Under the pieces are notes generated by a model, which ran no database searches, was not told where the DNA came from, and saw only the letters and a list, made by a program, of their open reading frames with translations. A stretch of 7,098 bases of DNA from Deltaproteobacteria bacterium (GTDB lineage: Bacteria > Desulfobacterota > Desulfobacteria > Desulfobacterales > JAFDDL01): the NCBI GenBank assembly GCA_019310865.1, contig JAFDDL010000186.1, positions 1-7,098 of the forward strand, given 5' to 3'. This document shows positions 1 through 7,098 of this stretch, in pieces. Made by a program: the position numbers and the translations under genes. Numbering within the stretch: position 1 is the stretch's first letter; every line of letters starts with the position of its first letter.

Positions 1-130
1 TGATCTCCATGGCACGGGTATAATTCTCTATAACATCTTGAATATCCAGTCTTAATTCCTCGCCATGAATCCGGCCCCTGTTTCTCGGGTCTCCCTCAAG
101 GTCAATTATCTTTAACTTGCTTGTTTCCAT
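1..130 (-). CDS. C45-type acyltransferase/amidohydrolase, N-terminal fragment (runs off the left edge)
   Basis: Reading leftward from the ATG at 130-128 gives 43 codons before the window edge. The N-terminus contains GDPRNRGRIHGEEL, followed by an amphipathic helix ending in ENYTRAMEI. The pattern G-x-P-x-x-R-G-x-x-H-G-x-x-L near the N-terminus is typical of the C45 family (acyl-CoA:6-aminopenicillanate acyltransferase-like Ntn-hydrolases). These proteins are made as precursors and cleave themselves in front of a catalytic cysteine; that cysteine would lie outside the window, so activity cannot be judged. The start is supported by AGGAG (140-136 on the minus strand) six bases upstream. A sigma-54-type promoter (183-200, minus strand) would give a leader of about 40 nt. 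Bacterial members are mostly of unknown substrate. Family assignment is moderate because only the N-terminal motif is visible. Confidence 0.6.
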   Translation of the reverse strand, partial: METSKLKIIDLEGDPRNRGRIHGEELRLDIQDVIENYTRAMEI

Positions 131-182
131 AGTATCTCCTTTAATACGGCCCGTTTGAGCGTTACGATCGTTTACAGAAGGC

Positions 183-200
183 GCATTTTTAATGCCAACT
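183..200 (-). promoter_or_regulatory. sigma-54 (-24/-12) promoter for the C45-type gene
   Basis: The minus strand reads TTGGCATTAAAAATGC (198 down to 183). GG and GC are separated by exactly 10 bases, as sigma-54 requires, and the -24 half matches TTGGCA. Weak points are TGC rather than TTGC and a G after the GC. The predicted start is near 171, about 40 nt before the ATG. The same TTGGCAT plus A-rich spacer recurs at 227-244 and 6912-6928. Confidence 0.6.
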
Positions 201-226
201 TATTCTGATGGTATTCAATCATTATT

Positions 227-244
227 TTGGCATAGAAAATGCTG
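227..244 (+). promoter_or_regulatory. sigma-54-type promoter pointing right, toward the 3' end of usp
   Basis: TTGGCATAGAAAATGCTG has GG-N10-GC spacing and is identical at 16 of 18 positions to the strong promoter at 6912-6928. Predicted start is near 254. No convincing large plus-strand gene follows: only an 18-codon ORF, and then transcription would run antisense into usp. The element is also one arm of an imperfect inverted repeat with 183-198 (14 of 16 complementary, 28-base gap), so it might instead be a structural or operator element. Confidence 0.4.
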
Positions 245-281
245 CTATAATCATCAGGATCAGGAACAGGAAAAAAGACAT

Positions 282-338
282 ATGATCTATATGCAGGTCA
301 AAACACTCGATTTTGATCGAATCGGAAAGAATCTTTAA
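282..338 (+). CDS. possible 18-residue small ORF behind a sigma-54-type promoter
   Basis: The ATG at 282 opens 18 codons (MIYMQVKTLDFDRIGKNL) ending in TAA at 336-338. The TAA overlaps an ATG (TAATG, 336-340) that would open a longer frame running antisense to usp. A purine-rich AGGAACAGG lies upstream, but its last GG is about 11 bases from the ATG, which is long. The only reason to list it is its position behind the promoter at 227-244. It may well be untranslated or a gene remnant. Confidence 0.15.
   Translation: MIYMQVKTLDFDRIGKNL
308..324. repeat. small dyad CGATT-N7-AATCG
   Basis: CGATT (308-312) and AATCG (320-324) form a perfect 5-bp dyad separated by 7 bases. It lies upstream of the predicted C45-gene promoter, about 140-155 bp from that start site, so it could be an operator. 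The arms are short and chance occurrence is likely. Confidence 0.2.
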
Positions 339-365
339 TGCTGAAATATCCTAATTGCACCGATA

Positions 366-390
366 TTCGGTCGTTTCATCATTTCGGTCG
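366..390 (+). repeat. direct repeat TTCGGTCG x2 with 17-base period
   Basis: TTCGGTCG occurs at 366-373 and again at 383-390, a 17-base period, equal to the period of the tandem repeat at 6831-6864. It sits between the usp stop codon and the outward-facing promoters, roughly 195-220 bp upstream of the predicted C45-gene start. A role as a distal activator site is possible but unproven. Confidence 0.25.
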
Positions 391-457
391 ATCATGCGGC
401 ACCTGTTACGGCCCGGTCGCTGAAAACATCCATGGCGCGACCCCAATCGCAGCCAAT

Positions 458-889
458 TCACTTGGTCGTGACCACCGGGCAGGGGGCATTGAGGATGACA
501 TACTGGGCGGTGGATCCGAAAAGGACCTTGCCCACCTTGGACTTGTGCCGAACACCGACAATGACGAAATCGACCGCTAAATCGTTGGCGAGTTGAACAA
601 TATCTTCGCCGGGGCTCAATTGCCGGTTCGATAGGTGTGTTTCATTTTCAAGGCCCGCCTTTTCGACGACTTCCTTAGCTTCCGCTAAAATCTTTTCAGC
701 CTTTTTGAGATTCTCTAACTGATTCGGAGGAACATTTTCAATAAAATCAAAGGTCTCAGAGGTACTCTGACTTATCGATACGGAATTAATAATATGAACC
801 TCGACTGTGAAAGCCTCTGACATTCTGACGGCAATGTTCAATGCATTTTTTGCAGGGCCTGTACCATTGTAAGCAACCAAAACTTTCAT
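458..889 (-). CDS. Universal stress protein, UspA family, single domain
   Basis: This is a 143-residue cytoplasmic protein of normal length for a one-domain Usp. It starts with the family's first strand and loop (MKVLVAYNGTGPAKNAL) and ends with the nucleotide-loop region GVRHKSKVGKVLFGSTAQ followed by APCPVV. The usual ATP-binding signature is G-2x-G-9x-G-S/T. Here the first and last glycines are present (residues about 112 and 125) but the second is histidine, so nucleotide binding is plausible but not certain. Residues about 60-80 form a charged helix (ENLKKAEKILAEAKEVVEKAG). The start is fixed by a perfect AGGAGG (900-895, minus strand) five bases before the ATG. The gene is divergent from the carboxyltransferase gene. 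A degenerate sigma-54-type promoter lies about 60 bp upstream. Usp proteins bind nucleotides and modulate stress survival; the specific partner is unknown. Confidence 0.93.
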   Translation of the reverse strand: MKVLVAYNGTGPAKNALNIAVRMSEAFTVEVHIINSVSISQSTSETFDFIENVPPNQLENLKKAEKILAEAKEVVEKAGLENETHLSNRQLSPGEDIVQLANDLAVDFVIVGVRHKSKVGKVLFGSTAQYVILNAPCPVVTTK

Positions 890-945
890 TGAAACCTCCT
901 TTACGTGAAAAAAATCACTTTACCAATAAGGTCTGGATAATTCAA

Positions 946-962
946 TAGCAATTTTTATGCGA
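946..962 (-). promoter_or_regulatory. degenerate sigma-54-type promoter for usp
   Basis: The minus strand reads TCGCATAAAAATTGCT, identical at 15 of 16 positions to the strong promoter at 6913-6928 (TGGCATAAAAATTGCT). The only difference is the first G of the critical -24 GG, which is C here. The -12 half TTGCT is ideal. Predicted start is near 936, giving a leader of about 47 nt. The -24 change would be expected to weaken it, so it is either a weak or decayed promoter or a coincidence with the A-rich spacer. Confidence 0.4.
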
Positions 963-1032
963 GCCCTTACGCTTGAATTTCTTGTGAAAGCCGTAAGAAA
1001 CGGATAGAATCGGCTTCAGATTGACAGCCAAA

Positions 1033-1048
1033 CATCAACATGTTGATG
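1033..1048. promoter_or_regulatory. perfect 16-bp palindrome, candidate operator or upstream activator site
   Basis: CATCAACATGTTGATG is a perfect uninterrupted palindrome between the divergent usp and carboxyltransferase genes. It lies about 120-135 bp upstream of the predicted carboxyltransferase sigma-54 start and about 96-111 bp upstream of the predicted usp start, which is the usual range for an enhancer-binding protein. It is followed by no T-run, so it is not a terminator. The binding protein is unknown. Confidence 0.45.
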
Positions 1049-1140
1049 CATATGATTTTATTTCGTTGGATTTCCCAAAGCCGGCGGCGGGAGTTGGGCA
1101 TAACGGCTTTAAATTAACCACAAAAACATCATCGAGTGCG

Positions 1141-1157
1141 ATGGTACATATTTTGCG
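1141..1157 (+). promoter_or_regulatory. candidate sigma-54 promoter for the carboxyltransferase gene
   Basis: ATGGTACATATTTTGCG has GG-N10-GC spacing with a perfect TTGC at -12 and TGG-AC at -24 (T replaces the usual C after GG). Predicted start is near 1168, about 63 nt before the ATG. It is weaker than the TTGGCAT elements in this window, and GG-N10-GC alone arises often by chance. Confidence 0.35.
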
Positions 1158-1216
1158 TATTCAATTATAAAACATAATTTGCTTTCACTCCGGAAGAAGA
1201 GGCTTTACGAGTGGAA

Positions 1217-1225
1217 AAGGAGGTG
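1217..1225 (+). promoter_or_regulatory. strong ribosome binding site of the carboxyltransferase gene
   Basis: AAGGAGGTG lies five bases before the ATG at 1231, a near-perfect Shine-Dalgarno. Its preservation shows that the upstream reading frame, which ends at an early amber codon, still has a working initiation site. Confidence 0.85.
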
Positions 1226-1230
1226 TCCCC

Positions 1231-2787
1231 ATGTCCTGGGAGAAGGAGCTCGACGAACTGGCCCACCGCAAGGATCTTGCCGAACAGATGGGCGGGCAGG
1301 AAAATGTTGCCCGTCAGCATAAAAAGGGGAAATTGACGGTCCGAGAACGGATTCAAATTTTGGCGGATGCCGGATCGTTCCGGGAGTGGAACGCGTTGGC
1401 GGGTGAAGGCAATTATACAGCGGGGCAGTTGACAGGATTTATCCCCAAGCCTTGGGTGTAGGGCACCTGCAGGCTAAACGGGCGAAAGGTGATCGTCAAC
1501 GGCGGTGATTTTACCGTAAGAGGCGGGTCCGGTGCTGTCTTGATGGAGGGCCTGGGAAGAGAATCGGCCTCCTATGAAAAAGCCCTTGAATGGCGTATTC
1601 CCTATGTGCGCTTGCTCGATTCAGCCGGCGGCAGTGTCAAGAGCTTTGAAAACATCGGCCGCACCTATCTTCCGGACGGGAATATATACGCTGCTCCCGA
1701 AGTCAAACTGTTAAATGCTATTCCGGTTGTATCGGCGGTGCTGGGATCGGTGGCCGGACTGCCCGCGATTGAAGCCTGCCTAGGGCATTTCAATGTGATG
1801 GTTAAGGATATCAGCCAGCTGTTTGCCGGCGGCCCTCCGGTGGTTAAGGCCGCATTGAGTATGGATATTACCAAAGAGGAATTGGGCGGAGATCAGGTCC
1901 ACGCATACCTCAGCGGGGTGGTGGACAATCTGGCTGAAACTGAAGAAGAGGCATTGGGTATTATCCGCCAATTTCTCGGTTACCTGCCCGACAACGTCTG
2001 GGAAATGCCTCACCGGATTGAACCTGAAGATTCACCGGGTCGACGTGAAGCGGATTTGCTGAGTATCATCCCCAAATCGAGACGAACTGCCTATGATCCA
2101 TATACCATCTTGCATCATACATTGGATAGGGATTCGTTTTTTGAAATGGCTCCTCTCTATGGCCGATCCCGTGTTACCGGCCTGGCACGCGTAAACGGGT
2201 ATCCGGTGGGTGTCATGATCAACAACACGCGCCACCTTGGCGGGTCGACGGATGTGGCGGCCGGTGAGAAGGTGATGCGCCTGATTCAACTCTGTGATAC
2301 GTTTCACTTGCCGCTGATATCGTTTGCTGATGAGCCGGGCTTCATGGTGGGCCCGGATTCCGAGCAGAGAGGGATTGAACGCGCCGGCGCCAGATTGGTC
2401 TGGACGGTTTGCTCCAGCCGTATACCCTGGATTACCATCGTCATCGGGCGCCTCTATGGGGTGGCCGGCCAGTGTCATCATCGGCCTTCCGGGATGTTTC
2501 AACGGTATGCCTGGCCATCGGGCAGGTGGGGGTCCATGCACATAGAAGGTGGCGCGTCAGCGGCATATCGGCGCGAGATCGAGTCATCCCCTGATCCGAA
2601 TCAAAAGCAGAAAGAAATTGAAGACCGGCTCCAGGCGTTGGCATCACCTTTTAAAACCGCCGAAGCATCCGGCACGGAAATGATCGATCCCCGGGACACG
2701 CGGTCGCTGCTCTGCGAGTTTATAGATGACGCCCAGCGCGTGCTCAAGATGCAGCTGGGGCCGCCGGTTATTCCCTATCGACCATAA
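1231..2787 (+). pseudogene. Acyl-CoA carboxylase carboxyltransferase subunit, interrupted by one in-frame amber codon
   Basis: The frame from 1231 to the TAA at 2785-2787 spans 519 codons (518 residues if codon 77 is read), the usual length for carboxyltransferase subunits of propionyl/methylmalonyl/glutaconyl-CoA-type biotin carboxylases and decarboxylases. They move CO2 between carboxybiotin and an acyl-CoA. With the amber counted as residue 77, the N-terminal half has GKLTVRERI, DFTVRGGS (93-100), the oxyanion-type SAGGS (131-135) and the acyl-CoA-binding AGGPPVVK (about 199-206). The C-terminal half has DEPGFMVG (367-374), YGVAG (409-413), RYAWPSG (425-431) and IDPRDTR (485-491). Both crotonase-like halves are therefore complete and only TAG at 1459-1461 breaks the gene. 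A GTG at 1489 could restart translation but lacks a good ribosome site and would omit the first 86 residues. No biotin carboxylase or biotin carrier gene is visible. The organism may have a recent nonsense mutation, a sequencing error, or amber readthrough; decay is the simplest reading. It is GC-richer than the regulator (one row hand-counted at 40/60). Confidence 0.8.
1459..1461 (+). other. in-frame TAG within the carboxyltransferase reading frame
   Basis: The local translation is GFIPKPWV-stop-GTCRLNGRKVIVNGGDF, and homology to the family resumes immediately in the same frame. In the family this is a variable position before a glycine at the start of a strand, not a known catalytic residue. 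A short near-palindrome (CCCAAG-C-CTTGGG, 1444-1456) precedes it, and CACCT/AGGTG (1464-1468/1487-1491) can pair after it. Neither is strong evidence for programmed readthrough. Confidence 0.9.
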
Positions 2788-2895
2788 TCCCAGTTAAGGG
2801 CTCGCGCAGGAAGGGAAAAAGACAAGCAAGATACGTCAGCTGATAGATGATTGGGCACTAGTGTGTCGATAATATTTTGTCGGATGATATTTTGC

Positions 2896-2953
2896 ATTTG
2901 TCCTGTTCATATGTACATTTTAGGCAACATATATCCTTTTTAAAAGGACAAAT
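2896..2953. repeat. nested inverted repeats sharing one arm
   Basis: ATTTGTCCT (2896-2904) is the exact complement of AGGACAAAT (2945-2953), 40 bases apart. Inside, TCCTTTT (2934-2940) pairs with AAAAGGA (2942-2948) around one base. The AGGA segment can pair with either partner, so the two structures exclude each other. There is no GC-rich stem or following T-run, so it is not a standard terminator. Confidence 0.4.
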
Positions 2954-3013
2954 CAGCCCAAATGTGCTTGTTGAGTCCGAAAAATAAGTTTAACACCGAA
3001 TAGTTATGCTCTG

Positions 3014-3023
3014 GTTTATCCGG
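3014..3023 (+). promoter_or_regulatory. near copy of the 17-bp repeat core upstream of the regulator
   Basis: GTTTATCCGG matches GTTTATACGG, the first ten bases of the tandem repeat at 6831-6864, at 9 of 10 positions. It lies just upstream of a candidate -35 element, where an autoregulatory site would be sensible. Confidence 0.3.
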
Positions 3024-3036
3024 TACAAAAAAAGAT

Positions 3037-3065
3037 TTGATTAAAATCCGAAAGCAAGCTAATAT
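3037..3065 (+). promoter_or_regulatory. candidate sigma-70-type promoter of the regulator
   Basis: TTGATT (3037-3042) and TAATAT (3060-3065) are separated by 17 bases. Each matches the consensus at 4 of 6 positions. The predicted start is near 3072, giving a leader of about 68 nt. In AT-rich DNA such matches are common. Confidence 0.3.
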
Positions 3066-3114
3066 CATTTTTTAATTTCGACGACTTTCTTTAGTTTAAT
3101 TCCGAAAAACAGAA

Positions 3115-3124
3115 CCGTATATAC
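3115..3124 (-). promoter_or_regulatory. second near copy of the repeat core, inverted, in the regulator leader
   Basis: CCGTATATAC is, on the minus strand, GTATATACGG, a 9-of-10 match to GTTTATACGG. It contains the 8-bp palindrome GTATATAC and lies only 15 bases before the start codon, where a bound protein could block transcription or initiation. Confidence 0.3.
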
Positions 3125-3139
3125 CGGGTGGGGGGGCAA

Positions 3140-6100
3140 ATGGCGGCTCCTGGGAAAAGTCATTCTTTTGAACAGTTTAAACTTCAATTTAAAAACGATG
3201 CTATATGTGAACAGTATCTGTTCAAAATCCGTTGGCCACAAGGATTTAGATGTCCCTCTTGCGAACATAAAAAATATTATGAACTTCCCAAGAGAAAACA
3301 ATTTCAATGTAAAAGCTGCGGTCACCAAACGACAGTGACCGCCGGTTCGGTGATGCACAGAACGCGAACACCACTGCGTTATTGGTTCCGGGCGGTCTAT
3401 TTAATCACAAAAGAAAAAAAAGCCATATCAACCACCACATTGTCTAAGACCTTAGATATCAGCTACAGCGCAACCCGCCAGATGATCCAAAAAATCAAGG
3501 GGACGACAAAAGAAAAAGGGCTCATTCATGATCTTATACAAAGTTTTAATACCTTTGAATCTTCTATCACTGATGATGATAGCGCCAGTGATGGTACGGA
3601 AAAAAAACCACCGATTTCAAAACACATATTATCAAGAGAAGAACCTGAAACCATATTTATTCCACCTGTTTTAAATGCGACAGACGTTATTGATGGAATT
3701 ATGCCCGTTGCCGCTCTATTTGCAGGATCATTTTCTATAGATTGGATGATTGAGTTGACTGAATTGAGTGCCTCTAAAATCCTTTCGGTCTTTGATAAAG
3801 CCATTGACCGGGAAATTATTATAAAAGAAAATTCTGAATATTATTGTTTTAAAGATGAGAAGCAGAAAAAGCGGTTTCAGGACGCCCTTGACAGTAAGGA
3901 AAAAGCGTTCATGCATAGCAAAATAGCCGCTGTTTTATTGAGAAGTCCGATAGATGATACTGAAAAAATCCATTCAATCGCCGGCCATTTTCTCCATCTT
4001 GATTATACCCTTTCTAACTGTCGGTTTCTTTTAAAAGCCGGTGACATTTATCGGTCTATCCATCGTTATGAGGATGCATATAAGTGTTACTCGAAAATGT
4101 TAAATGATCTTAATGACAAGGAGGGTGATGACGAAATTAATCTTTATATTAAAGCGGCGATTAACGCATCCAAAATCGTCGAAGCCAACCTAAATTCGCC
4201 TGAAATAATACTTGCTCTGAAAAATGCAATTGAAAAGTCTGAACGTAATGGTATGAAAAGGCAAACCGTTCTTTTAGAGTTGAATTTGGCCAAAAATAAA
4301 TGGTTTCTTTCGGACTATTCAAACGCCCTCAAGCATTTTGAAAAAGGCTTTTCGATGGTGGAGGAGATTAATGATAACCGTTTACGGCGTGCATCTGCTG
4401 CTTTTCACATTTTTTATCTATTTCTCCAAGGGCGTCATGAGGAAGTCGTCAACCATTATGAAATGATTATGGAAGACGTGGAAAAATATCCTCATGGGCA
4501 TTTTCCCTCAGTTGCCACCTTGATGATTGGCGTTTCGTATATACTTACCGGGCATGTTACGCATGGGTTCGGTTTACTGGATTCGATTCATAATCATAGT
4601 TTGGAGAAGGGTAATGACGATGTATTATGCCAAACATACCAATCTCTTGGTTATATGTTCCTTTATCATGATAAGGTAGACGAGGCATTGCGTTACCTGG
4701 AAATCGGTCTACAAAAGGCCATCCAATTTCAAAAGCCCTGGGTTGAGACCATCATTTTGACGTTATTGGCGAAAGCCTATTATATGAAAAATCAAATAAA
4801 CAAAAGTGTGGGCTATTTGAGGAAGTACATCAAGAAGGCTAGAAAAGAAGATATTTTCAATATTCCCCACACTGCGTTGATAGAGCTGTGCTGGGCCATG
4901 GAACAAAATGAGCTGCCCCGTGTTGGAGATTTTTCTTTAAAAAGAGAAATTAGCCGGTCGATCAGGAGTGAGAACGTTGATGCAAAAGGCATGGGTTATT
5001 TTTATCAAGGCCTTCTTCTAAGGCGAAAAGGCAAATCCCAGGATGAAGTCATTCAGGCTTTTAAAGATGCACTCAAGTGGCAAGAAATGTCGGGAATCAA
5101 GATCGACATAGCGGCCACGCTATTGGAGCTTTCAAAGGAATACCAGGCTAAGGGAGCAAGGTCTAAAGCGCAAAATACAAAAAAGAAGGTTAAAGAGATC
5201 ATAAAGTTCTTCGATGCCGAATTTATTCCCAAATTCTTAAAGTTATCATTTAAAGACTTGCTTACGGATCGAGATCTTTTTAAAGAGATTGTGTTGTTGA
5301 GCCAAAAACTAACCCTGATCAGAGATAATAAAGAACTGGTTCATCACATTATTTCCAAGGCCAACCATATAACCGGTGCAGAACGGGGTGCCATTTTTAT
5401 TCTCGACAAAGACGCGTCTTCCGTGAAATTGAAGCTAAGAGCGGCAAGAAACCTAACTTCTGAAGATATCAGTCACCAGAATTTCAAATCCTCAATTTAT
5501 ACGATTAAAAAAGCGGCTTCCACAGGGGATGCGCAAATTATTGAGATAAACCGCGGTCAACAAAAGCACCTCTACCATTCGGGTGACATCACTTCCTGTA
5601 TCTGTGTGCCCATGAAATATCGGGGTGAAGTGGTTGGGGTGCTTTACCTCGACAACCGTCTATTTTACAATAAATTTAAAAAAAACGATCTTGAAATCCT
5701 TCAGTATTTTGCTGCACAGGCCTCTATTGCCATGGATAATGTAGCTGCCTATGAAGAGATAAAGAGTATGGCACAGCAACTTAAGGAAGAAAAACAACAT
5801 TTTGAGGAGCAACACCTTGACCGCATCCACTTTGAGGAAATCGTCGGTAGTAGCGCCGCCCTCATGCGTGTCTTGAAAGACGCAGACAGTGTTGCCGGTA
5901 CCGATACAACCGTCCTGATTCTGGGAGAGACCGGGGTCGGCAAGGAATTGATCGCACGGGCAATTCATCGAAGAAGCGCAAGAAGAAACGGACCGTTTAT
6001 TCGGGTCAACTGCAGCGCCTTTCCCGATACGTTAATTGCCAGCGAGCTTTTCGGTCACGAAAAGGGTGCGTTTACCGGCGCCATTGAAAAACGATTGGGC

Positions 6101-6766
6101 CGCTTCGAATTGGCGAACGAAGGCACCTTGTTTCTTGACGAAGTGGGTGATATTTCTTCAGAGGTTCAGGTACGTCTGCTGCGGGTGCTGCAAAGCAAAG
6201 AATTTGAGCGTGTCGGTGGCAGACAAACCCTTCATTCTGATTTCCGACTTGTGGCTGCCACGAATCGTGATCTTAACCGGCTCATTCAAGAAAATAAATT
6301 TCGAGAAGATCTTTTTTTCCGCCTGAACGTGTTTCCAGTTCATGTCCCTCCCATACGGGATAGAAGGGACGACATCCCTTTGTTGGCCCAGTATTTTCTT
6401 AAAATTTATGCTGGGAAATTGGGAAAATCCATCCGAAGCATTTTAAAAACTGATATGGAATCGCTGGTAACTTATAACTGGCCGGGAAATGTAAGAGAAT
6501 TGGAGAACGTGATCGAGAGAGGGGTGATATTAAGTTCCGACTCTCATTTTTCAATGCCGGACCTGAAGGCCGGAGGCTTGGAACAAGGCTTCGAAGGGCC
6601 GCTTATCACGCTTTCAGAGATCGAACGTCATCATATTATCCGGGCAATTAATTCAACAGGCGGAAAAATATATGGGCATGGAGGGGCCGCGGAAATACTT
6701 GATGTCAACCCTCGCACACTCTACTCAAGGATGAGAAAGCTCAATATTCATAAAAATAGCCGCTGA
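3140..6766 (+). CDS. Sigma-54 enhancer-binding regulator with an IS1595-transposase zinc-ribbon/HTH N-terminus, TPR and GAF domains
   Basis: The product is 1208 residues. Residues 9-120 match the N-terminus of IS1595-family transposases: SFEQFKLQF, four cysteines (C38, C41, C57, C60), the RTRTPLRYWF block (75-84) and an HTH (96-121). A polar linker follows (about 125-175). Residues 176-265 resemble the winged helix and 285-690 the TPR repeats that follow STAND NTPases (e.g. AGDIYRSIHRYEDAYKCYSK), but no NTPase precedes them. A GAF domain spans about 715-868, then a helical linker. The AAA+ domain has Walker A GETGVGKE (929-936), GAFTGA (976-981), Walker B LFLDE (997-1001), sensor I ATNRD, FREDLFFRL and WPGNVREL (1114-1121). 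A FhlA-like HTH is at 1157-1204. All parts needed to contact sigma-54 and remodel RNA polymerase with ATP are present. No DDE domain is present. I prefer the ATG at 3140, preceded by a G-rich run; a GTG at 3128 would add four residues. The next gene has a sigma-54 promoter and is a likely target. The inducing signal is unknown. Confidence 0.93.
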   Translation: MAAPGKSHSFEQFKLQFKNDAICEQYLFKIRWPQGFRCPSCEHKKYYELPKRKQFQCKSCGHQTTVTAGSVMHRTRTPLRYWFRAVYLITKEKKAISTTTLSKTLDISYSATRQMIQKIKGTTKEKGLIHDLIQSFNTFESSITDDDSASDGTEKKPPISKHILSREEPETIFIPPVLNATDVIDGIMPVAALFAGSFSIDWMIELTELSASKILSVFDKAIDREIIIKENSEYYCFKDEKQKKRFQDALDSKEKAFMHSKIAAVLLRSPIDDTEKIHSIAGHFLHLDYTLSNCRFLLKAGDIYRSIHRYEDAYKCYSKMLNDLNDKEGDDEINLYIKAAINASKIVEANLNSPEIILALKNAIEKSERNGMKRQTVLLELNLAKNKWFLSDYSNALKHFEKGFSMVEEINDNRLRRASAAFHIFYLFLQGRHEEVVNHYEMIMEDVEKYPHGHFPSVATLMIGVSYILTGHVTHGFGLLDSIHNHSLEKGNDDVLCQTYQSLGYMFLYHDKVDEALRYLEIGLQKAIQFQKPWVETIILTLLAKAYYMKNQINKSVGYLRKYIKKARKEDIFNIPHTALIELCWAMEQNELPRVGDFSLKREISRSIRSENVDAKGMGYFYQGLLLRRKGKSQDEVIQAFKDALKWQEMSGIKIDIAATLLELSKEYQAKGARSKAQNTKKKVKEIIKFFDAEFIPKFLKLSFKDLLTDRDLFKEIVLLSQKLTLIRDNKELVHHIISKANHITGAERGAIFILDKDASSVKLKLRAARNLTSEDISHQNFKSSIYTIKKAASTGDAQIIEINRGQQKHLYHSGDITSCICVPMKYRGEVVGVLYLDNRLFYNKFKKNDLEILQYFAAQASIAMDNVAAYEEIKSMAQQLKEEKQHFEEQHLDRIHFEEIVGSSAALMRVLKDADSVAGTDTTVLILGETGVGKELIARAIHRRSARRNGPFIRVNCSAFPDTLIASELFGHEKGAFTGAIEKRLGRFELANEGTLFLDEVGDISSEVQVRLLRVLQSKEFERVGGRQTLHSDFRLVAATNRDLNRLIQENKFREDLFFRLNVFPVHVPPIRDRRDDIPLLAQYFLKIYAGKLGKSIRSILKTDMESLVTYNWPGNVRELENVIERGVILSSDSHFSMPDLKAGGLEQGFEGPLITLSEIERHHIIRAINSTGGKIYGHGGAAEILDVNPRTLYSRMRKLNIHKNSR
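3164..3499 (+). other. transposase-derived zinc-ribbon plus HTH module (IS1595-like) inside the regulator
   Basis: Residues 9-120 of the regulator follow the order of an IS1595-family transposase N-terminus: YLFKIRWPQGFRCPSC, a second CKSC pair, QTTVTAGSVMHRTRTPLR, a WFRAVYLI helix and then TTLSKTLDISYSATRQMIQK as the HTH. In transposases this part is thought to recognise the element ends. The DDE/RNase H-like part that should follow is replaced by an acidic linker, so the segment cannot transpose by itself. No flanking terminal inverted repeats were recognised. Confidence 0.85.
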
Positions 6767-6830
6767 AAAAATGATGCCCATTTGTTGAAATACTCATATA
6801 TCGACACTTTGCTTAAATTTCAACACTCAT

Positions 6831-6864
6831 GTTTATACGGAAATTCGGTTTATACGGAAATTCG
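6831..6864 (+). repeat. perfect 17-bp tandem repeat, candidate upstream activator sites
   Basis: GTTTATACGGAAATTCG occurs twice with no gap (6831-6847, 6848-6864). The block ends 49 bases before the -24 GG, so it covers about -108 to -75 relative to the predicted start. Two adjacent direct copies at this distance are typical of enhancer sites for sigma-54 activators. The regulator encoded just upstream is the natural candidate to bind them. Confidence 0.7.
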
Positions 6865-6911
6865 ATAGATTCTATAACCGTTTGCAGCATTTACCGCGGA
6901 TCCTTGTCAAA

Positions 6912-6928
6912 TTGGCATAAAAATTGCT
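6912..6928 (+). promoter_or_regulatory. strong sigma-54 (-24/-12) promoter
   Basis: TTGGCATAAAAATTGCT matches TTGGCACG-N4-TTGCW except for two bases after TTGGCA, with exact GG-N10-GC spacing (GG 6914-6915, GC 6926-6927). The predicted start is near 6939, about 37 nt before the ATG at 6976. It is the best sigma-54 match in the window and directly follows a sigma-54 activator gene. Confidence 0.85.
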
Positions 6929-6975
6929 GCTTGAACAATCAAGGAAGATAAATAAGATATACAAAGGAATCTAGC

Positions 6976-7098
6976 ATGCCGAGTACTCAAGATGGCCCTT
7001 TTTCATCCCTGTTTACGCCGCTATCAATAGACGGTAATTTTGCCATATCGAATCCTGATGATTCACCTGTTTCCGAGGGAATGAAAAAGAACCTGATC
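6976..7098 (+). CDS. N-terminal fragment of an unrecognised protein, probable target of the regulator
   Basis: The ATG at 6976 opens a frame of 41 codons that runs off the right edge. AAGGA (6964-6968) lies seven bases upstream. The visible start is MPSTQDGPFSSLFTPLSIDG followed by NFAISNPDDSPVSEGMKKNL. I do not recognise a family. SLFTPLSI faintly recalls the start of Old Yellow Enzyme-type flavoproteins (LFTPLKI), but the following NRIV motif is missing, so I do not assign it. There is no signal peptide or membrane segment in the visible part. Its interest lies in the context: a strong sigma-54 promoter and tandem repeat immediately behind the regulator gene. Confidence 0.7.
   Translation, partial: MPSTQDGPFSSLFTPLSIDGNFAISNPDDSPVSEGMKKNLI

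Follow-up and report, generated by a model that had tools for sequence, protein, structure and literature searches.

Transposase capture is a known source of transcription factors in animals, and the host-transposase fusions of vertebrates reportedly arise by this route (Cosby 2021). Vertebrate transposase capture is a eukaryotic process, which involves other transposase families and proceeds by exon capture through splicing. The bacterial regulators NifA, FhlA and NorR are known with one DNA-binding domain. More generally, the accessible sections of PMC7175178 describe enhancer-binding proteins as often having three domains, with one DNA-binding domain at the C-terminus and binding sites upstream of the promoter. 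For bacterial transposon proteins turned into regulators, the accessible part of PMC13418256 describes TldR proteins as repressors derived from nuclease-dead TnpB. The term IS1595 is absent from the main text, as accessible, of a review on recruited prokaryotic mobile elements (PMC8987985), and neither transposase nor TPR occurs as a term in the accessible text of a study on sigma-54 in D. vulgaris (PMC4641369). Here we describe a gene from a deltaproteobacterial contig, in which a host regulator and a transposase DNA-binding domain sit in one reading frame.

Results

The window, i.e. the whole stretch of DNA that was analysed, comprises positions 1 to 7,098 of the forward strand of JAFDDL010000186.1 (GCA_019310865.1). 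Its fusion gene (3140..6766, + strand) encodes 1208 aa from an ATG at 3140; the frame is open from either GTG 3128 or this ATG to the TGA at 6764-6766, and an in-frame GTG start is therefore possible. The N-terminus carries an IS1595-type zinc ribbon (residues 18-63; 3191..3328, +), which matches PF12760 (Zn_ribbon_IS1595) over 46 of 46 model positions, with an E-value of 2.4e-15 and 56.6 bits in the whole protein, and 1.9e-16 and 60.2 bits when the first 157 residues were searched alone (cut-off 25.4). The presumed zinc-ligand cysteines C38, C41, C57 and C60 are invariant across 25 aligned rows. Downstream of the ribbon follows a transposase-type HTH (3374..3505, +) with helices at residues 79-91, 98-105 and 109-122, which AlphaFold2 predicts with high confidence (mean pLDDT 81.8). 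Residues 75-124 match positions 2-52 of the 215 positions of the NCBIfam model for IS1595 transposases, NF033547 (E 5.6e-8); the score of 32.9 bits is below the whole-protein cut-off of 75, as is expected if the protein covers just the N-terminal quarter of the model. The preliminary description of this DNA had read a zinc ribbon and HTH in the order of IS1595 transposases, and had proposed a PF12760 profile search and a structure prediction of the N-terminus as checks; both bear that reading out. It had also claimed that the DDE nuclease was lost, and indeed DDE-domain families are absent both from the best 25 of 28 matches listed for the whole protein and from the 24 matches for its first 157 residues. 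An identity of the fusion protein as an IS1595 transposase is rejected, as it is without the DDE catalytic domain.

The HTH is followed by a fusion-specific helix (residues 128-142; 3521..3565, +), recognized by a motif in the fusions and by a helix in the model, and by a linker (residues 143-179; 3566..3676, +) modelled with low confidence for most of its length (pLDDT <50 at residues 155-179). A winged-helix region, seen in the model at residues ~180-268 (3677..3943, +), marks the start of the part that is common to a family of 1040-aa regulators. It leads into a TPR-type helical region (residues ~269-700, the end being approximate; 3944..5239, +), with a TPR_12 match at 379-445, helices modelled up to residue 380 and no significant family match beyond residue 445. 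Then come a GAF domain (residues 731-865; 5330..5734, +; PF01590, E 2.4e-14), the sigma-54 AAA+ domain (residues 901-1067; 5840..6340, +; PF00158, Sigma54_activat, E 2.7e-69), its lid (residues 1073-1144; 6356..6571, +; PF25601) and a Fis-type HTH, HTH_8 (residues 1157-1201; 6608..6742, +; PF02954, E 1.2e-6, 28.6 bits against a cut-off of 22). The matches of Sigma54_activat, lid and HTH_8 all exceed their cut-offs, and both the Walker A motif GETGVGKE and the GAFTGA motif (residues 976-981, bases 6065-6082) can be read directly. By the sequence features tested, the fusion protein is a sigma-54 activator. The AAA+ domain with GAFTGA and the C-terminal Fis-type HTH are thus as first described; that domain list was correct at both ends, but omitted the winged helix, TPRs and GAF domain in the middle. 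No kinase was matched in the fusion protein, and AAA_16 was matched only inside the sigma-54 AAA+ domain (907-982), below its cut-off.

A protein search with residues 1-900 returned 191 relatives, 120 of which were listed. Among these 120, PF12760 is present in three, namely the window protein, P0002 (60% identity, 99% coverage, same domain order) and P0003 (57% identity, 99% coverage, same domain order, C-terminally partial), both of which NCBI names as sigma-54 regulators of Deltaproteobacteria. Since P0002 and P0003 share the domain order, the fusion is not an accident of assembly; a search for other proteins of the same architecture, suggested at the outset, thereby also answers the initial concern about a misjoin. 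PF12760 is absent from the precomputed domains of the remaining 117 listed relatives, among them P0004 and P0005, which are 61% and 57% identical to the window protein. Those ribbon-less relatives that were aligned have their start within the linker or around residue 180. Because of these 117 relatives, the zinc ribbon was probably added to an existing 1040-aa family of TPR-GAF-AAA+-Fis regulators. In a quick tree of the body (46 rows), the three ribbon proteins form a clade with P0004 and P0005 (SH-aLRT 100), while the remaining 41 rows are without ribbon; the ribbon amounts to one change on this tree, where the three as a group are weakly supported (69). P0005 has an N-terminus similar to the linker of P0002, so that the module may possibly have been lost in P0004 and P0005, or an upstream start may have been missed.

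The 1040-aa family (winged helix, TPR, GAF, AAA+, Fis HTH) bears no family name in the libraries used. It is common in the sampled genomes of Desulfobacterota type, many of which carry it; the sampled genomes form overlapping sets of 395, 389, 24, 17 and 85, with handles running up to G836. The fusion was not found in these, which is a soft negative, as scoring was limited to two candidates in most genomes of the sets of 395 and 389. A PF12760 survey of the 389 genomes, which scored no more than 17 candidates in any of them, gave a match in 87; among the matches listed, one frame was longer than 450 aa, a transposase reading on into other sequence (L105). This frame (380-1777, - strand) is a full-length IS1595-type transposase that extends for more than 100 residues into secreted-looking sequence, and as such is a second case of a transposase joined in frame to other coding sequence.

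Searching with the N-terminus of P0002 identified six further fusions, P0121-P0126, whose modules are 47-54% identical to that of P0002. These giants follow the order zinc ribbon, protein kinase, AAA_16, and are here referred to as kinase-STAND proteins. In P0123 and P0125, a GAF, a sigma-54 domain and a Fis HTH follow; the sequence of P0124 breaks off within its sigma-54 domain, P0122 closes with GAF and PAS, and P0121 and P0126 end earlier, so that a sigma-54 domain is present in three of the six (partial in P0124) and PAS in one. In P0122, no DNA-binding family besides the module was matched at E 0.001. The usual kinase motifs are named HRD and DFG; in P0121, P0122, P0123 and P0125 these look degenerate, with HKM for HRD and GFG for DFG, and as the usual catalytic aspartates are absent from the motifs read, these four kinase domains may be pseudokinases. 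The bodies of the TPR-GAF activators and of the giants differ in domain order and are distantly alike in sequence; the winged-helix region of the window protein resembles the giants' region after the NTPase (hhalign E 4e-4, probability 35%). Since the same module heads the kinase-STAND proteins, it is not confined to the TPR-GAF activator architecture, and a module common to two different regulator architectures is new here. Across lineages, the fusion is retained in P0002 and P0003 and in P0121-P0126.

For the origin of the module, nine fusion modules were aligned with 23 transposase N-termini from the sampled genomes. Both CxxC pairs are kept in 32 of 32 rows, and two motifs composed after inspection of this alignment separate the groups: G[FLI][ILMV]xxLxxS[FL], in the fusion-specific helix, occurs in 9/9 fusions versus 0/23 transposase rows, and the motif for the first catalytic DDE acid in 0/9 versus 22/23. 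The fusion-specific helix motif occupies the stretch where transposases run into their DDE domain. By E-value, the best transposase match in the sampled genomes is L060, which is 47% identical over residues 12-126; its own frame breaks off at 177 aa, yet reaches the start of a DDE domain. Several of the sampled transposases are real elements, given that inverted repeats surround the gene at 9 of 13 related loci examined and that 8-base duplications were found at L062, L066 and L099. On the module tree, the nine fusions lie on one side of a branch with a support of 92/81, which is below the starred level. AU tests rejected the grouping of the window-type fusions with L060 (p 0.013) and of the giants with L060 (p 0.012), but not that of the window row alone with L060 (p 0.065).

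Upstream of the fusion gene lies a gene for an acyl-CoA carboxyltransferase of the propionyl-CoA carboxylase beta type (1231-2787, +), one continuous frame but for a single in-frame TAG at 1459-1461, for which a nonsense mutation, a sequencing error and a recoded amber codon are candidate readings. A universal stress protein (PF00582, E 1e-21) is encoded at 458-889 on the minus strand, and the intergenic stretch before the fusion gene contains an imperfect inverted repeat (2896-2953, 23-nt arms, 74%). At ten loci of the ribbon-less parental family (L106-L115, the top matches from the sets of 395 and 389 genomes), 20 neighbouring ORFs were picked by eye, two of which lay further off than the nearest. 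An acyl-CoA metabolism gene is among the ORFs scanned at 8 of these 10 loci: an acyl-CoA dehydrogenase at L106, L108, L110 and L113, a hydratase/dehydrogenase at L107, and AMP-binding or CoA-ligase proteins at L111, L112 and L114. A branched-chain amino acid transporter neighbours L115, and the ORFs scanned at L109 include neither transporter nor acyl-CoA gene.

Downstream, two perfect tandem 17-bp copies of GTTTATACGGAAATTCG (6831..6864, +) form a candidate upstream activator sequence, judged by position. The repeat ends 47 bases before TTGGCATAAAAATTGCT (6912..6928, +), a sigma-54 -24/-12-like site that itself lies 47 bases before the ATG at 6976. This site agrees with 11 of 13 positions of what we take to be the -24/-12 consensus and is the best such site in the window, where 0.05 are expected per mononucleotide shuffle. 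The gene that starts at 6976 can be read directly for 41 codons (6976..7098, +) before it runs off the contig; this start has no Pfam match at E 0.5, and the gene is a candidate target of the fusion protein. Together, repeat, promoter and protein are consistent with an ordinary sigma-54 circuit, as typical enhancer-binding proteins bind upstream sites according to the accessible sections of PMC7175178. A second sigma-54-like site, TTGGCATAGAAAATGCT (227-243, +), agrees at 10/13 positions, has no evident gene on that strand, and for the most part overlaps an arm of an inverted repeat (88%) whose partner is 183-198; two sites of that score were found in the window versus 0.49 expected per shuffle.

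Discussion

The absence of the DDE domain, together with the presence of the fusion in two other sources, makes capture and retention of an IS1595 transposase N-terminus well supported by sequence comparison. The domestication originally proposed for this gene thus stands with regard to homology, capture and retention, but not as a feature of a single architecture, as the giants carry the module too, nor as the origin of the regulator itself, as the module probably joined an existing family. Furthermore, the nine-module clade, the common helix motif and the rejection of two of three rival groupings point to one capture, followed by domain shuffling between regulators.

Overall, we consider it fairly likely, and the best explanation, that the protein is a sigma-54 enhancer-binding protein to which a second DNA-binding module, of transposase origin, was added. 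Its history would comprise a single capture of an IS1595 end-binding domain with loss of the nuclease, acquisition of a new C-terminal helix by the captured module, and later transfer of the 5' part with the module between unrelated regulators. In function, the TPR and GAF regions may sense a signal tied to acyl-CoA metabolism, after which the AAA+ ring would remodel sigma-54 RNA polymerase. The Fis HTH would bind activator sites, e.g. the tandem repeat before 6912, while the ribbon-HTH module would bind a second DNA sequence, altering or strengthening targeting. That the module binds DNA, and that it allows the two-site or looped binding first suggested, is inferred. An extension that we regard as improbable is that the module still recognizes IS ends, in which case each IS1595 copy of the host would seed a sigma-54 enhancer, and the module would be a traded plug-in targeting part.

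A different function for the module, namely that the captured ribbon-HTH has ceased to bind DNA and acts as a receptor cap for protein binding, oligomerisation or metal/redox sensing, is possible though on balance rather unlikely. The N-terminal seat is the usual place of the regulatory domains of enhancer-binding proteins in the accessible sections of PMC7175178, and the module likewise stands at the front of the kinase-STAND proteins, one of which, P0122, ends in PAS and has no further DNA-binding family at the threshold given above. The helix motif, common to the nine fusions and absent from the 23 transposase rows, is in line with such a cap as well. Against it, all nine fusions keep both CxxC pairs, and the HTH helices are predicted with high confidence.

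With regard to history, at least two independent captures from close IS1595 transposases, leading separately to the TPR-GAF activators and to the giants, would account for two bodies that differ in domain order and are distant in sequence, for a clade support of no more than 92/81, and for the window row alone being allowed with L060. We regard this as unlikely, given the helix motif that both types share and the fact that the AU test rejects a grouping of either type with L060. It would also fit the ribbon-less relatives, which start in or about the linker, if the N-terminus were a decaying IS remnant in frame and the real regulator started near residue 180; this is very improbable, as P0002 and P0003 keep the module despite divergence to ~60% identity, and the CxxC pairs are kept. 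A misjoin of an insertion sequence and a regulator gene during assembly is scarcely credible, with the same architecture in those two records, and with a best transposase match of 47% in the sampled genomes, i.e. no near-identical insertion sequence was seen there.

These findings suggest that regulators can arise through the capture of transposase pieces in bacteria, as they do in vertebrates. A conserved bacterial case would show that this route works without introns: one transposase DNA-binding domain, with its nuclease lost and a helix gained, set on two kinds of receptor. Moreover, a sigma-54 activator with two DNA-binding ends would make the choice among many -24/-12 promoters testable. 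If recognition of IS ends were true, mobile elements would connect new promoters to acyl-CoA and other signalling networks at a stroke.

Compared with known systems, the fusion protein resembles NifA, FhlA and NorR, its best NCBIfam matches, in having a GAF domain, AAA+ with GAFTGA and a C-terminal Fis HTH; it is not their orthologue, since its scores are under the curated cut-offs. The 1040-aa regulators, such as P0004 and P0005, share everything from winged helix to Fis HTH, but lack the zinc ribbon-HTH, their first residues lying in the linker or close to residue 180. IS1595 transposases share the zinc ribbon and HTH, whereas their DDE catalytic domain is absent from the fusion. The kinase-STAND giants have the same module with the same helix motif, yet in these a kinase and an AAA_16 NTPase come after it. 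TldR likewise is a bacterial transposon protein made into a regulator, but, in the accessible part of its description, an RNA-guided whole protein rather than a DNA-binding domain set on an activator (PMC13418256). By analogy, TldR is the closest bacterial case that we met, though of another principle, and the closest idea is vertebrate transposase capture, in which a host regulatory domain is likewise joined to a transposase DNA-binding domain.
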